Assembly: GCA_002686885.1 (NCBI GenBank)
Contig: NYYT01000034.1
Span: 16,872 to 54,437, forward strand
Source of the DNA: Pedosphaera sp.
GTDB taxonomy: Bacteria; Verrucomicrobiota; Verrucomicrobiia; Limisphaerales; AAA164-E04
DNA: 37,566 nt
Reading direction: 5' to 3'
The notes beneath the pieces are model-generated. The model made no database searches and was not told the DNA's origin. It was given only the letters and a program-made list of their open reading frames with translations. Made by a program: the position numbers and the translations under genes. Shown piece by piece: positions 23,189 through 31,294 of the stretch; position 1 is the first letter of the stretch, and each line of letters starts with the position of its first letter.

Positions 23189-24206
23189 GGTCCCTCACTG
23201 AGTTCAGCCATTCCTGCAAACTGTGAGTGGCAGTCCCGCTTTTACCCACCACCACACCCGCAGCGTGATTGGCAAGTATGGCGGCCTCCACTGGCGAGGC
23301 TCCCCCTGAAATGGCAAGTGTGAAGGCCGCAATGGCCGTGTCTCCAGCCCCAGAGACATCGTAGACTTCCCGAGCCATGGTGGGAATGTGGAAAGGTTCC
23401 TGCCCCCTTTGGCAAAGCAACATGCCTCTCTCTCCCAAAGTGACCAGCATCATCGCAGGGGCGGCTTCGGTCATCAGCTGGGCAATCACCTCGTGGAGCG
23501 CCCGATCCTTGAGAGGATCCACGGTTCCAGGCACCTCGGGGCGTCGCGCCAAAGCAAAGAGCTCCTTGCGATTGGGCGTCATCAGAGAAAGTCCTTTCAA
23601 ATGGAGTGGCTTGACTGGCTTGGGGTCCATGCTGAGCCAGATCCCACGTTGTCGACACATCACGGTCAGAGAATCTAACAACTCCTGAGTCACCACACCC
23701 TTGCCATAATCGCAGAGAATCACTGCCGAAACTTTCGATGTGAGGTGGCGCTCAACACGTTTGAGCAGTTGTTCGGTCTGGCGAGTGGTAATGGGCTCAC
23801 GGCGCTCTCGATCCACCCTTACCATTTGCTGACGCAAGGCAACGATGCGCGTTTTCAGTGCGGTCATGCGGGAAGCACTGCGGAGCACACCGCCACAACC
23901 CACCTGGCATTGCTTGAGCTGCTCGATGAGGTGATCCCCTGCCACATCACGGCCAATCCACGAGCAAATGACCGTATCGGTATTCCATGCCGTCAGGTTA
24001 CGCGCTACATTGGCTGCTCCGCCAGGCATGTAACGCTCATCCTGGAAATCCAGAACGGGGACAGGAGCCTCAGGGGAGATGCGGGTGACCTGCCCCCAGA
24101 TAAATTGGTCAAGCATGACATCTCCAACCACCAATATGCGCTGAGACATCCCTGCCTCGAGAATGGCTTGTGCCCGCAAGGGATCCATGGAAGGCAGTTT
24201 CGGCAT
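23181..24206 (-). CDS. hldA: D-glycero-beta-D-manno-heptose-7-phosphate kinase (RfaE domain I, PfkB family)
   Basis: VVGDVMLDQFIWGQVTRISPEAPVPVLDFQDERYMPGGAANVARNL; DVSGAGDTAIAAFTLA. GTG 24209 or ATG 24206 start; no C-terminal nucleotidyltransferase domain. Confidence 0.92.
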   Translation of the reverse strand: MPKLPSMDPLRAQAILEAGMSQRILVVGDVMLDQFIWGQVTRISPEAPVPVLDFQDERYMPGGAANVARNLTAWNTDTVICSWIGRDVAGDHLIEQLKQCQVGCGGVLRSASRMTALKTRIVALRQQMVRVDRERREPITTRQTEQLLKRVERHLTSKVSAVILCDYGKGVVTQELLDSLTVMCRQRGIWLSMDPKPVKPLHLKGLSLMTPNRKELFALARRPEVPGTVDPLKDRALHEVIAQLMTEAAPAMMLVTLGERGMLLCQRGQEPFHIPTMAREVYDVSGAGDTAIAAFTLAISGGASPVEAAILANHAAGVVVGKSGTATHSLQEWLNSVRDHG

Positions 24207-25003
24207 CACGAGGCTTCCAGAAAGGCCGTTAACGGACTCGATGCGTTGGCCGTGCTCGAAGTAGCACCCAGACCGATTTCATAGGCTTCACGACCCGCTT
24301 GCACGGCCTTCTTAAAAGCCATCGCCATTCGAACCGGATCCTGGCAAACAGCAATCGCCGTGTTGATGAGAACCGCATCGGCTCCCAGCTCCATGGCTTC
24401 GGCTGCATGACTGGGTGCTCCCAGACCTGCATCCACCACCACCGGGACTTCAGCTTGTTCAATGATGATGCGAATCTGGTCACGCGTGGCTACCCCCTGA
24501 TTGGAACCAATGGGCGAGCCCAATGGCATGACCGTTGCCGTGCCCACGGCTTGCAGACGCTTGGCCAATACAGGATCCGCATTGATGTAGGGCAAAACAG
24601 TAAAACCTTCGGAAACCAATTGTTCGGCAGCCTTGAGGGTCTCTACCGGATCGGGCAGCAGATATCTTGGATCCGGGTGAATTTCAAGTTTGACCCACTT
24701 GGGGAGACCAGCTGCGGCGGCCAGTCGAGCCAACCGTATGGCTTCCTGAGCATCCATCGCCCCGCTGGTGTTGGGAAGAACAAGGAACTTTTTCGGGTCA
24801 ATGAATTCGAGAATATTGGCGAATGGGTCTTTGGCGCCGGAGAGATCAGCCCGCCTCAAGGCAACCGTCACGATCTCTCCCCCGGTGGCATCCAAGGCAT
24901 CCCGCATGAGATGCGGCGATGCAAACTTCCCTGTTCCTACTAAAAGGCGAGAACCAAAAGAGCGCCCACCGATGTTTAAGGTTTTGTCATCCGCTGCTGA
25001 CAT
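24206..25003 (-). CDS. thiG: Thiazole synthase ThiG
   Basis: [88 protein letters not shown]. Confidence 0.96.
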
Positions 25004-25050: not shown

Positions 25051-25647
25051 TCAAATCATGAGCTCCAAGATACGATCACTCAATTGACGTTTCCACCGCT
25101 CAAGAAATGTAAAGCGGTGATAGAGTTCGGTCAACTCGCCAACGAGTGATCGAGGGATGGAACCCTCTTCTTGGCGATGGGATTCCCATGAAACCTGGTG
25201 TCGTGAGAGAAGGCCCTCGAGATGCTGCAGATCGTCCTCCAAAGCCGAGCGAAGTGATTCACAGGTTTTGCGTTCATTCAACGCCTTGCTAAGAAATACG
25301 ACTTGTAAGAGCTCGGGCGCGTCTGAAGGTGGTTTCTGCTTGAGCATGGCATCGGTGGCATGGAGACAAGCACCCACCTCCATGAATCGGTCTCCGAGGT
25401 CTTCGGGAACCTCCTGCATCGGAACCAGCGAGGTTTGAAAACATTCTTGAAGCAGATACTTGAGCCGACTGGGGATCGCTCCAAGAATCTGGTAGGCATG
25501 ATGGAGGGATTGAGCTTCTGCTTCATTTTCAGGCCCCTTGAGCTCGGCCGCTCGCTCCAAGTAGCGGCTTTTGAGTGTCTCTGCATCCAGCACCAAGCTC
25601 GGAGTGACCCCAAGAAGTTGGAAATACGAATCCACGACAAACGACAA
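25051..25647 (-). CDS. HscB-like J-domain protein lacking the HPD motif
   Basis: YFQLLGVTPSLVLDAETLKSRYLERAAELKGPEN...HHAYQILGAIPSRLKYLLQ parallels HscB helices I-III; C-terminal YHRFTFLERWKRQLSDRILEL parallels the HscB C-terminus. Confidence 0.75.
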   Translation of the reverse strand: MSFVVDSYFQLLGVTPSLVLDAETLKSRYLERAAELKGPENEAEAQSLHHAYQILGAIPSRLKYLLQECFQTSLVPMQEVPEDLGDRFMEVGACLHATDAMLKQKPPSDAPELLQVVFLSKALNERKTCESLRSALEDDLQHLEGLLSRHQVSWESHRQEEGSIPRSLVGELTELYHRFTFLERWKRQLSDRILELMI

Positions 25648-25665: not shown

Positions 25666-26052
25666 TCAGGCACTGAAACTCTCGCCACAGGAGCAACTCG
25701 ACGCCGCATTGGGATTACTGACCTTGAATCCTCCATCCTGAAAGGATTCCCTGTAGTCCAATTCAGAACCCGTCACATAAAGGGCACTTTTAGGGTCTAC
25801 CACCACCCGGACGCCTTGAGACTCCACTACAATGTCGCGGTGAGCCGGTTGATCCTGAAGATCCATTTTATACTGAAGCCCCGAGCAGCCACCACCGACC
25901 ACGGCGACTCGCAAAATCCCATGCGGCCTTCCCTGTCGAGAGAGAAGAGAAGACACCTTGTTGCCAGCCTGTTCGGTGAGACGAATCAGACGCTCATCCC
26001 CCTGCCGGATACTCACTTCACTTTGGGATTTCTTCAACTTGCCCGTGATCAT
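25666..26052 (-). CDS. IscA/ErpA/HesB family A-type iron-sulfur cluster carrier
   Basis: VAVVGGGCSGLQYKMDL, SALYVTGSELDYRE, FKVSNPNAASSCSCGESFS: the three conserved Cys. Start MITGKL at 26052 (ORF open to 26094). Confidence 0.95.
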   Translation of the reverse strand: MITGKLKKSQSEVSIRQGDERLIRLTEQAGNKVSSLLSRQGRPHGILRVAVVGGGCSGLQYKMDLQDQPAHRDIVVESQGVRVVVDPKSALYVTGSELDYRESFQDGGFKVSNPNAASSCSCGESFSA

Positions 26053-26094
26053 ATCAATACCTATTTCTATACGGCACTCGCGGCTACCTTGCAA

Positions 26095-29000
26095 TCATGG
26101 GCTCGTTTCTTCATGCAGCACTTCAATGCGATCCCAGTAGGCGAAATCATTGGTCAGGTCATAGGCATAGTTTTCAAGACGCACCGGAACGGACGGCCCG
26201 GCAAAAGGGGTCAAGTCCACTTGAACCTCCTGCCAGGTGCCCGCGCTTGCTTCCATGCGCTGGCGATGCACGAGCTTTTGATCCACAAAGACCCTCAGCA
26301 CCCAGGGTCCATCCTGAGCAGCGCCCGCCCGGATACGCAACCAAGTAGCCCCCTCAGAGGCAACATCCAGCGTGGAGGAGAGGCTGGCAGAACGCTGGTG
26401 GCCGTAAGGATGAGTGACCAGGATGTGCTCGCGCCCATTCCAATCTGTCATCACCGCGGGAGCTGGACCTTTCTCGGCGGAATCCACCTCCCATTGTGGG
26501 TTCCAAAGGCTGATGGACTCATAGTCACGGGGCATCGAGGAGGCCTGCTCCCCTACCAGCTCACGCCGCAGGGCCGGGGTCATGCGGCGACCATCTTCAG
26601 GCGGATTAAGCACATACCATATGAGGTCTCTGAAATCCTGATCGGGCATTTGTTCCAGCCCTTCGGGCATCAGGCTGGATGGGGTTGTTTCCCTCGATGC
26701 AATATCCTTTTTGCGAACCACCTGCTCCAAAGGTCCAGCAGCGAGCAGCTTCACGTAGGTCTCGGTTTCCTCGATCACTCTACCGGAAAAGGTCCGATCA
26801 TCATGCGTCTCAACGATCACATTCTCGTAACCAGCTCCGATGATTTGATTGGGATTAATGACATTGGCCAAGAGCGCGTCAAGATTGGAGCGCCCCACTC
26901 CCGTGAGGTCTGGACCCACCGAGGCCCCTTTGCCGTGCAACTGATGACAGACCAGGCAAACCGTCTCTGCAAGCTGTTGACCACGGGCTAAATCGGGTTC
27001 CCCTTCCAGCACCATGGCTTTTTTGGCTGCGATCAATAGATCCATGTCGGCATTGGCCGGGCGCACGCGCCCGATGGCAGCCAAGGAAGCTTTCTGAATA
27101 GCTTCATCACGATGTTCGGTGAGGGCACGGATCACCGAAGCGGGCAAGTCGGAGGCAGCCACCTGTTTCTGCTCAATCCCCAAGAGCAGTCTTCTGATCC
27201 ACGCGTTTCTGGACATGAGCATTTTGATGGCCTCCTGTCGATGGGAAGGTGTCAGCTTGGACCAGGATTCCATCACGCCCTGAGCCATGGCCTCACCTTC
27301 CTGTTCGCGCATGGCGCGAATCAGTTCCAGAGTCAATGGCCCACCGGCATCCCGCTGAAAGCGCTTGAGCAAGGCTTGCTGCAAGGCGTCGTTCTGGAAG
27401 CGTCGAGCCATATCCATGGCCCTTCTCTGCGTCGGCTCATCCACCTGCTCCGATTCAATGTGCTTGACGATATTTTCCAAGGTCTTGGGATCTCGCCACA
27501 ACACCCCTAACTGCAGTAGCCACTCCTGGTGCAGGGTCCCTCCCGCTTGTGACCAACGTTCCAACAACGCCGTGGCGTTTGCGGGAGCATCGCTTCCATG
27601 CAATTCCTGTCCCTCAGCCAAGGCCCTGAGAGCTTGGAGCATCAAGCCCTGATCTGCCGCACTGAAACGATCCACAGCTTGAACCGCCAGGGCGAAGGCC
27701 TCCGGTGTGGCCATGTCACAAAGTCGCCGGAGGGTCTTGTGCGTCAGTTGACCGGCAAGCGGCTGAGCCGCGGGCCCCTCGTTCACAAGCCAATCCAAAA
27801 CGGAAGCGGGATCTTCTGCGACCCAAGGTTCGGCAGCCATCCAGGTCATGAATGGGATCAGGGGATCCTGAGCATCGGCAGAAGCACGAATCAATGCATC
27901 AAAAACAGGTCCCAGTGTTTCCAGGCCCGCAGACGAACGCCGGGGAGTATCGATGGTCAGCGACCCAGAAGCATACTGTCGCAAGGCTGTCGCCACCGCC
28001 GCCCTTACCGAGGCATGCGGATCCTTGGCCAGACGCTCGAGCCTGGCAAAAGCCCTCCAGTGGTCGGTCGCACGTTCTCCTGTCAAACGAGCAGCCCACA
28101 TGCGCAAGCCAAAATCGACATGTTGACTGGCGGCATCCAAGGTGGATTCATCCAAAAGCCCGCTCCCATGAAGGGTCCAAAGGGCACTCAAACGCCCCTC
28201 AAGGGTGGAAGCCTCTTGGATCATCGCCCTCAAGGCAGGCTGTGTCTCTGCATCACGACGCTCATTCAATAATCGCTGGGCCATTTCGCGATGCCATACG
28301 TTGGGGTGATTCAGCAGAGTCACCAGCTCCTTGCCAGAGGCTTGGGCAAGGTTCATCTCTTTCTCAGGTCGGCTTGAGATCATACCTCCTTGGCCATCGC
28401 CGGTGTAGACCACGCGCCAAATGCGACCATAAGCACGATCCACGCCTTCGGGATCGGCCCGAGCATTTTGATAGCATGGGTATTTATCATACCAATCGGC
28501 AATCCAGACCGTACCATCAGGACCAATCTGCTCACTGACGGATCGAAACCAACCATCGGAAGACTGGACGAAATTATCCATGGCGTGGGCCTTGAAGGAT
28601 GCACCATGGGGTTCCAGACGATCCATGTTGACCGCGTTTTCGTGAATATTCCCCATCAGCACTCTACCGGAATAGGCCTCAGGGTATTGATTTCCCTGAT
28701 ACACAGCCACCCCGCAGTAAGCAGCTCGATAGTGACGATGATCGACAATGGATGGTAGCAACCCATAGCTATAGGAAAATTCAGGCCGTCCGGCTTGACG
28801 GACATAAAGTCCCCCCGGAGCCATGTGAAAGAGATGGTCAATGACACAGGCACTGACAAAAGCATTGCCATAGCGATCAAAATCCACGTGCCATTGATTG
28901 GATGCGCCATCCGAAAAAATCTCGAACCGTTTGGAAGTCGGGTGATAGCGGGCCACGGCCGCGTTCATGATGACTTCGGGGCGCTCGGGGTGATCGGGAT

Positions 29001-29613
29001 CCTTGACCTTCGAATGAGTGAACACCCCCTGAGTCATGTAAAGCCAGCCATCCGGCCCCCAGGTAAACCCATTGAGCAATTCGTGGCGATCCTCCAAACC
29101 GAATCCACCCAACAGAGTCGTGGTTTGATCACATCGATCATCTCCATCGGTGTCTTCCAGAAAAAGTAAATAGGGAGCCTGCCCCACGTAAACGCCCCCG
29201 TTACCCAACAGCAAACCGGTCGCAAGGTTGAGTCCATCCGCAAAGAGGGTGGACGTGTCCGCACGTCCATCCGCATCGGTGTCTTCCAGTATGCGAATTC
29301 GGTCACGAGGTTTTTCACCCCTCTTGGCCCCTTGAGGGTATTCGAAAAGTTCCAGCACCCAAAGTCGCCCTCGCTCGTCCCAGTCCATGGCAACTGGATT
29401 GACCACATCAGGTTCGCTGGCAAAAAGACGCATTTCAAAGCCATCAGGAACCGAAAAGGTCGCCGGGGCCAGGGTGGGTGGCACGGGCTGACTGGAGGCA
29501 GGCGCATGGGGGCCCGTCAATTGACGCCCTGCAGCGCGCAGGGTGATGGTATTAAGGACCAAAGCCAGGCAAACACACAGGGCACAAAAAGTGGTTGAAA
29601 CAATAGTTTTCAT
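26095..29613 (-). CDS. PVC-type exported membrane-bound dehydrogenase: beta-propeller, HEAT-like repeats, c-type heme
   Basis: Signal MKTIVSTTFCALCVCLALVLNTITLRAAG; FSVPDGFEMRLFASEPDVVNPVAMDWDERGRLWVLE; C-terminal heme motif CLVCH with KGASVGPDLTGVGR. Confidence 0.93.
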   Translation of the reverse strand: MKTIVSTTFCALCVCLALVLNTITLRAAGRQLTGPHAPASSQPVPPTLAPATFSVPDGFEMRLFASEPDVVNPVAMDWDERGRLWVLELFEYPQGAKRGEKPRDRIRILEDTDADGRADTSTLFADGLNLATGLLLGNGGVYVGQAPYLLFLEDTDGDDRCDQTTTLLGGFGLEDRHELLNGFTWGPDGWLYMTQGVFTHSKVKDPDHPERPEVIMNAAVARYHPTSKRFEIFSDGASNQWHVDFDRYGNAFVSACVIDHLFHMAPGGLYVRQAGRPEFSYSYGLLPSIVDHRHYRAAYCGVAVYQGNQYPEAYSGRVLMGNIHENAVNMDRLEPHGASFKAHAMDNFVQSSDGWFRSVSEQIGPDGTVWIADWYDKYPCYQNARADPEGVDRAYGRIWRVVYTGDGQGGMISSRPEKEMNLAQASGKELVTLLNHPNVWHREMAQRLLNERRDAETQPALRAMIQEASTLEGRLSALWTLHGSGLLDESTLDAASQHVDFGLRMWAARLTGERATDHWRAFARLERLAKDPHASVRAAVATALRQYASGSLTIDTPRRSSAGLETLGPVFDALIRASADAQDPLIPFMTWMAAEPWVAEDPASVLDWLVNEGPAAQPLAGQLTHKTLRRLCDMATPEAFALAVQAVDRFSAADQGLMLQALRALAEGQELHGSDAPANATALLERWSQAGGTLHQEWLLQLGVLWRDPKTLENIVKHIESEQVDEPTQRRAMDMARRFQNDALQQALLKRFQRDAGGPLTLELIRAMREQEGEAMAQGVMESWSKLTPSHRQEAIKMLMSRNAWIRRLLLGIEQKQVAASDLPASVIRALTEHRDEAIQKASLAAIGRVRPANADMDLLIAAKKAMVLEGEPDLARGQQLAETVCLVCHQLHGKGASVGPDLTGVGRSNLDALLANVINPNQIIGAGYENVIVETHDDRTFSGRVIEETETYVKLLAAGPLEQVVRKKDIASRETTPSSLMPEGLEQMPDQDFRDLIWYVLNPPEDGRRMTPALRRELVGEQASSMPRDYESISLWNPQWEVDSAEKGPAPAVMTDWNGREHILVTHPYGHQRSASLSSTLDVASEGATWLRIRAGAAQDGPWVLRVFVDQKLVHRQRMEASAGTWQEVQVDLTPFAGPSVPVRLENYAYDLTNDFAYWDRIEVLHEETSP

Positions 29614-29830
29614 CGAAAATGGTGAGCAATTGGCATGTTGCGAGAATGCATCCTTCAAAGGGTCCAATGCGCAGCGAACAGGCTCCGCAGCCTCAAGTGA
29701 ACCATCTCGGATGGGGTGGATGTTGCGCCAAATCGCCCGTGCTGTCAAAATCCCATTCCTGCCCGTGGGGCTGAAGATCTTTTTCACCTCAAAACCGATG
29801 ACCTGCAGGTCAGATGGAGATTGGGCACCT

Positions 29831-31294
29831 TCAGGCAATCAAGGAACGGACAATATTGCCATGGACATCGGTGAGACGGAAATCTCGCCCGGCATAGCGG
29901 AAGGTAAAAGCCTCATGATCAAAACCCAGGAGCCATAGAATCGTGGCATGCAGATCGTGAACATGCACCACATCTTCGACTGCCTGAAATCCAAATGGAT
30001 CGGTCGCCCCATGCACCATGCCACCCCGGACACCCCCTCCGGCCAACCACATGGTAAACCCATGGTGATTGTGGTCTCGCCCATTGATCTTACCAGCATT
30101 GGCACCGGGCTTGGGAAGTTCCACCGTCGGAGTCCGCCCAAATTCGCCGCCCCATAGGACCAGGGTGTCTTCCAACATGCCTCGCTGCTTGAGGTCGGTG
30201 AGGAGCGCGCCTATCGGTTGATCACACTCCCGAGCCAATCGGCGGTGGTTTTTTTCGATATCATCGTGGTTGTCCCAGGGTTGCCCGGCTCCGTGCCAAA
30301 GCTGGACAAAACGCACCCCCCGCTCCAGTAACCGGCGGGCAATCAACATTTGGCGTCCCTGGACCCCATCCCCATACATGTCGCGGATGTGTTCGGGTTC
30401 CCGTTGGATGTCGAATGCGTCGGTAGCGTCCATTTGCATGCGATAAGCCAACTCGAATGAGTGAATACGGGCTTCGAGCTGAGGATCGGCTTGTCGCTGT
30501 TCGACGTGTTCCCGGTTGATGCGTTGGAGCAAATCAAGCTGACGTCTCTGGCGAGAGCTGGTCAGTTTCTTGTTTTGAATATGCTCAATCAGCTTTTCAA
30601 CTTCCCGGTGGCGAGAGTCGACATAGGTTCCCTGAAACACACCCGGAAGAAATCCTGACTGCCAATTTTGAGATTCCTGAATCGGGTAGCCCCCCGGACA
30701 CATGACAATGAAGCCAGGCAAATTCTGGTTTTCACTTCCCAGACCATAGGTCACCCACGAACCTACACTGGGGCGAACGAGCCGGGCTTCACCGCAATTC
30801 ATCAACATCAACGAGGGCTCATGATTCGGCACATCGGCCTTCATGGATCGAATCACGGCGATATCATCGATGCATCGAGCCACATGAGGAAAGAGGTCAC
30901 TGACTTCGATCCCACTTTGCCCATGATGCTTGAATTCAAAAGGCGATGCAAAAGCAGCGCCCGTCTGACGTTCGGTGCGCAAATTTTGCATCGGCAGCAT
31001 CTGCCCGGCATAGCGGTCAAGCTCTGGCTTGGGATCAAAGCTGTCCACGTGAGACGGCCCACCATTCATGAAGAGATGGATCACTCTCTTTGCCTTGCCG
31101 GGAAGCAGGGGTTGACGCGGTGCAAGCGGAACAGTGGTTTCAGCCGAGGCATGCGAGGCGGGAGTGAGAAGCCCCGCTCCGCCCAACAGACTCTGCAGGC
31201 CAAGAGAACCGAAGCCCATACCCAGTCTGGAAAGGAAAGCTCGCCGGGGGGGCTGGCTTACCCTGTCCGAGTCGAATGATGGGGTGGAGAGCAT
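29831..31294 (-). CDS. DUF1501 family protein with Tat-like signal
   Basis: PRRAFLSRLGMGFGSLGLQSLLGG; KAKRVIHLFMNGGPSHVDSFDPKPEL; VLWGGEFGRTP; DHNHHGFTMWLAGGGVRGG. Confidence 0.95.
   Translation of the reverse strand: MLSTPSFDSDRVSQPPRRAFLSRLGMGFGSLGLQSLLGGAGLLTPASHASAETTVPLAPRQPLLPGKAKRVIHLFMNGGPSHVDSFDPKPELDRYAGQMLPMQNLRTERQTGAAFASPFEFKHHGQSGIEVSDLFPHVARCIDDIAVIRSMKADVPNHEPSLMLMNCGEARLVRPSVGSWVTYGLGSENQNLPGFIVMCPGGYPIQESQNWQSGFLPGVFQGTYVDSRHREVEKLIEHIQNKKLTSSRQRRQLDLLQRINREHVEQRQADPQLEARIHSFELAYRMQMDATDAFDIQREPEHIRDMYGDGVQGRQMLIARRLLERGVRFVQLWHGAGQPWDNHDDIEKNHRRLARECDQPIGALLTDLKQRGMLEDTLVLWGGEFGRTPTVELPKPGANAGKINGRDHNHHGFTMWLAGGGVRGGMVHGATDPFGFQAVEDVVHVHDLHATILWLLGFDHEAFTFRYAGRDFRLTDVHGNIVRSLIA

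Follow-up and report, generated by a model that had tools for sequence, protein, structure and literature searches.

The window, i.e., the whole stretch of 37,566 nucleotides analyzed here, carries on its minus strand an hscB-type gene at positions 25051-25647, in agreement with the coordinates given in the preliminary description of this DNA. The gene encodes a protein of 198 amino acids without the HPD tripeptide; its translation from the TTG start codon at 25647 reads MSFVVDSYFQLLGVTPSLVLDAETLKSRYLERAAELKGPENEAEAQSLHHAYQILGAIPSRLKYLL...FLERWKRQLSDRILELMI, and an alternative GTG start at 25635 yields MDSYFQLL, which resembles the MTDYFALL starts of orthologues. With a GC3 of 0.548 the gene matches its neighbours (0.545 and 0.560). 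Immediately upstream, on the same strand and at a distance of 18 bp, lies a gene for an A-type Fe-S carrier (IscA/ErpA-like; 25666-26094, minus strand; TIGR00049, E 2e-36; PF01521), and the next gene downstream is thiG (24206-25003, minus strand; PF05690, E 1.7e-104), the downstream context also including a PfkB-family rfaE-type gene. The iscA-hscB-thiG-rfaE order is kept in sister genomes of the family, and the iscA-hscB pairing recurs among relatives; the carrier, its spacing, and its pairing with the hscB-type gene thus stand as they were first described. Directly upstream of iscA, the window encodes a large DUF7133-HEAT-cytochrome c protein (26095-29838, minus strand) and a DUF1501 protein (29831-31294, minus strand), a gene pair that we take to be typical of PVC bacteria.

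Fold, family profile, tree position, and synteny identify the gene product as a genuine HscB orthologue. An AlphaFold2 model, computed with 28 relatives (mean pLDDT 93.6), contains a J-like helical hairpin at residues 8-70 (25438-25626, minus strand), in which helix II (22-35) and helix III (39-56) are joined by a three-residue turn (36-38), and a C-terminal scaffold-binding helical domain at residues 82-197 (25057-25404, minus strand) that keeps FMEVG (88-92) and FLERW (181-185), which align with the FLMEQ and FLDKL regions of E. coli HscB. The best fold matches of this model in the PDB were the HscB structures of E. coli (1FPO), Vibrio (4IT5), and human (3BVO), each at a probability of 1.00 and with no other near match. 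A family profile search recovered E. coli HscB 1FPO (E 1.6e-14), so that the HscB-like layout recognized at first reading is borne out both by the fold and by the profile comparison that had been proposed to check it. Moreover, TIGR00714 (hscB) matches 27 of the 29 family members, and the window protein is 47% identical to the HPD-bearing HscB of genome G001, its sister in the tree (support 99/97). The family profile and the fold were used because Pfam and NCBIfam models applied directly to the window protein by itself gave too weak a call: the cut-offs of the curated HscB models were not reached (PRK00294, E 0.013, 15.5 of 169 bits), and HSCB_C was not found. A scan of genome contigs with the window protein as query gave no matches, while the IscA query succeeded.

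Since HPD is absent between helix II and helix III, the window protein is a J-like protein rather than a canonical J-domain protein. The site of the HPD loop of the orthologues is occupied by ELKGPEN (25525-25545, minus strand), with only the three-residue turn left between the two helices. A same-genus orthologue (ASCHPDHETCPDEDQLAGNQTSEL) has HPD and roughly 14 residues at the tip of helices II and III that the window protein is missing, and the alignment indicates that HPD has gone by an in-frame deletion that included the loop, and not by substitution. The absence of HPD had been recognized beforehand, but its description as a replacement by ELKGPEN is better rendered as a deletion.

The orthologue survey at the HPD position that had been suggested revealed that the loss is rare. 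In an order-wide sample of 135 loci (124 distinct), the window genome (G000) and genome G005 were the only ones with an HPD-less sequence, and 65 further loci from named genomes, which brought the total to 167 distinct orthologues, added as their sole HPD-less member G005 again. Of the 167 distinct orthologues, 165 thus carry HPD, so that its absence from the window protein goes far beyond what chance would give, and its loss as a trait of the family was rejected on this basis. G005 (record OX638380.1) is a closed, single-contig chromosome of an uncultured Verrucomicrobiae bacterium from the same family as the window genome. In the tree, the window protein is sister to the HPD-bearing G001 protein (99/97) and the G005 protein to the HPD-bearing G003 protein (90/86); since each HPD-less orthologue has an HPD-bearing sister, the phylogeny points to two independent losses. 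In the G005 lineage the DnaK and DnaJ branches are also long.

No hscA had been seen in the window, which holds true for the window itself; a second Hsp70 of the HscA type is found elsewhere in the genome, and the notion that the genome is devoid of hscA was therefore rejected. Besides a canonical DnaK (contig C53), the genome holds a full-length Hsp70 of 638 amino acids on contig C133, which is orthologous across the order. This protein scores 574 bits with TIGR01991, below the HscA cut-off of 708.55, and 618 bits with PRK00290 (DnaK), likewise below cut-off. It groups with E. coli HscA (99/97), in a part of the tree where long branches meet, and it has the HscA residues at DnaK positions 407, 413, and 427 (L407, P413, and T427). 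At DnaK position 436, the HscA residue Met is found in 28 of 31 second-Hsp70 orthologues and Ile in the window genome. These HscA residues are not seen in eight DnaKs of the order. Across 58 genomes, in which the presence of both genes was assigned by hand, hscB and the second Hsp70 occurred together in 43, neither occurred in 11, and only one of them in 2 and 2 (Fisher p 2.5e-8, ignoring phylogeny), which provides the survey of hscA in hscB-bearing genomes that had been called for. The 11 genomes without both genes contained only low-scoring NifU_N matches, SufU-like by score class. A Pfam DnaJ search of the window genome did not find a replacement J-protein specific to it; in this genome and in G005 a single protein each, a class A DnaJ, passed the threshold. 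Throughout the order, about 20 extra residues, which DnaK does not have, follow GGQTRMPMV in the nucleotide-binding domain of the second Hsp70. Genome G010, with an estimated contamination of 6%, carries two nearly identical copies of the second-Hsp70 gene, on contigs C23 and C25.

The scaffold on which such a chaperone pair would act is also present. The genome encodes one NifU_N protein, which is IscU-like and reads LPPTKIHC for LPPVKIHC of E. coli IscU, thus containing an LPPTK motif at the HscA site. Its gene belongs to a suf cluster on contig C116 (22000-31000) with the order sufC-sufD-sufT-sufS-rhodanese domain protein-iscU-like, and similar SUF/ISC hybrid clusters occur in relatives. 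The preliminary description had suggested an Hsp70-independent scaffold-binding factor; independence from Hsp70 is not established, because the genome keeps both the HscA-type Hsp70 and the LPPTK-type scaffold.

The reading that we favour, at a probability of roughly one half, is that the protein is an HscB still dedicated to its scaffold, in which canonical ATPase stimulation has been lost or greatly weakened. In this scenario, the in-frame deletion would have removed the HPD tip of the J-domain, and the C-terminal domain would still bind the IscU-like scaffold encoded in the suf cluster. The HPD-less HscB would be expected to bind the scaffold, keep it protected and in position, and drive it off the cysteine desulfurase, roles that HscB is known to perform without Hsp70: HscB on its own stabilises IscU upon binding and retards cluster transfer, and Hsc20 shields Isu from Lon and is a competitor of the desulfurase (PMC9596805). 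The ancestor of HscB has even been proposed to be a scaffold protector without Hsp70 contact that gained its J-domain later (PMC9596805). HPD is required for stimulation of the Hsp70 ATPase in all systems tested (PMC8215388), and a change of HPD to AAA in yeast Jac1 profoundly lowers the stimulation of Ssq1 and fails to rescue a JAC1 deletion (PMC6006194). We infer from these precedents, along with the domains kept and lost, both scaffold binding and a loss or strong weakening of the HPD-driven stimulation; the HscA-type Hsp70 would therefore depend on ATP turnover that is basal or induced by the scaffold, or on DnaJ as the sole HPD-bearing J-protein found in the genome. A point against this explanation is that HPD is needed in yeast, so that a scaffold-only HscB must be tolerated here. 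The longer HscB branch of the window genome and the draft state of that genome (estimated contamination 6.66%) also count against it.

Alternatively, HscB and Hsp70 could have co-evolved, the HPD-less hairpin still docking on the HscA-type Hsp70 and triggering it by another contact, with a substitution in the Hsp70 as part of the adjustment; we regard this as unlikely. The Hsp70 of contig C133 reads RIIHEPTAA for RIINEPTAA and thereby has His at the position of DnaK N170, which is unique to the window genome among the 31 orthologues; the other 30, as well as eight DnaKs, E. coli HscA, and E. coli HscC, have Asn. In view of DnaK mutagenesis, N170 presumably has a role in J-domain docking, and a search of the literature for N170 found nothing. 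R167, the residue to which the HPD Asp is bonded in the crystal structure of DnaK with DnaJ (PMC8215388), precedes this position by three residues. In line with a coordinated change, the C133 protein has private changes at just 3 of the 191 columns that are otherwise invariant (31 orthologues), and helix II of the window protein retains the basic residues K26, R28, and R32. Precedents are found in yeast Jac1, which underwent a J-domain loop deletion and became more tolerant of HPD substitutions after pairing with the specialised Ssq1 (PMC6006194), and in a designed J-domain analogue without HPD that was reported to stimulate Hsc70 (PMC13254874). However, 3 random private changes would by chance include a hit among 3 to 6 docking residues in 5-9% of cases, Asn is retained in G005, the other HPD-less genome, the residues in direct contact with HPD in DnaK (R167, Q378, L391, and P419) are unaltered in the C133 Hsp70, and the J-domain has lost the portion with which it reaches the linker. 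The Asn to His change may be a co-change with the HPD loss, a lead that is possible but unproved, and a natural HscB-HscA pair with HPD-independent coupling, in which the HscB deletion and the Hsp70 substitution are matched, appears distinctly improbable. Two other candidate partner changes in the Hsp70 were rejected: the linker change of L390 to Thr is common to the HPD-bearing G001 and G010, and M436 is also missing from two other Hsp70s whose genomes have HPD. In two genera of the family, TLLD replaces LLLD in the interdomain linker of the second Hsp70.

The gene could also be decaying, its J-domain function lost and the reading frame on its way to a pseudogene, which we consider doubtful. 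The HscB branch is longer in the window genome than in G001 (0.83 vs. 0.56), whereas those of DnaK (0.068 vs. 0.12), the second Hsp70 (0.34 vs. 0.39), and IscA (0.19 vs. 0.38) are not, and some relaxation of HscB is therefore likely. The loss of HPD in just 2 of the 167 orthologues would fit such decay, as would the 24 of 40 strongly conserved columns that the window protein retains (25-34 in family relatives), but the HPD-bearing G001 protein itself keeps only 25. Private changes, counted by region with G010 and G008 as outgroups, numbered 6 vs. 3 (window genome vs. G001) in the J-domain and 5 vs. 6 in the C-terminal domain, which are small numbers; by this measure the client domain is not relaxed, and its rate, which does not exceed that in the HPD-bearing sister, makes a dead gene less likely. 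The intact reading frame, the conserved synteny, the high-confidence predicted fold, and the same kind of deletion arising a second time in G005 speak against decay as well. Intact HPD in orthologues had initially been proposed as a sign of a strain-specific defect or sequencing error; the tripeptide is indeed intact in nearly all of them, but a sequencing error or simple decay is made less likely by the intact reading frame, by a client-binding domain that shows no acceleration, and by the HPD loss that occurred independently in the closed G005 chromosome. An artefact of assembly or sequencing is highly improbable, even though the genome is a draft of 140 contigs, as the deletion is in-frame with diverged flanks, lies within an 86 kb contig, and has an independent counterpart in the single-contig chromosome OX638380.1.

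The window protein, read as a scaffold-dedicated HscB with lost or weakened stimulation, shares with the HscB/Hsc20/Jac1 family the J-type hairpin, the C-terminal scaffold-binding helical domain, the location next to iscA, and the presence of an HscA-type Hsp70 and an LPPxK scaffold in the genome; it differs by the deleted HPD tip, an IscU-like client in a suf cluster, and an hscA that is not adjacent to hscB. The HPD-less J-like proteins of eukaryotes (Pam16/Magmas and plant J-like proteins) likewise have a J-type fold without HPD, whereas the window protein is a bacterial class C orthologue that lost HPD recently, inside an HPD-bearing family, and kept its client domain. Yeast Jac1-Ssq1 is comparable in its shortened J-domain loop and dedicated Hsp70 (PMC6006194), but Jac1 retains and needs the HPD that is missing here. 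If the HscB deletion and the Hsp70 substitution did prove to be matched, the supposedly universal J-domain trigger would be replaceable within a dedicated pair. Finally, two independent natural deletions of HPD, both in genomes where the Hsp70 and the scaffold are still present, allow a direct test of the separation of HscB functions, for which close HPD-bearing orthologues can serve as controls, and provide a natural test case for HscB action in the absence of Hsp70 activation.
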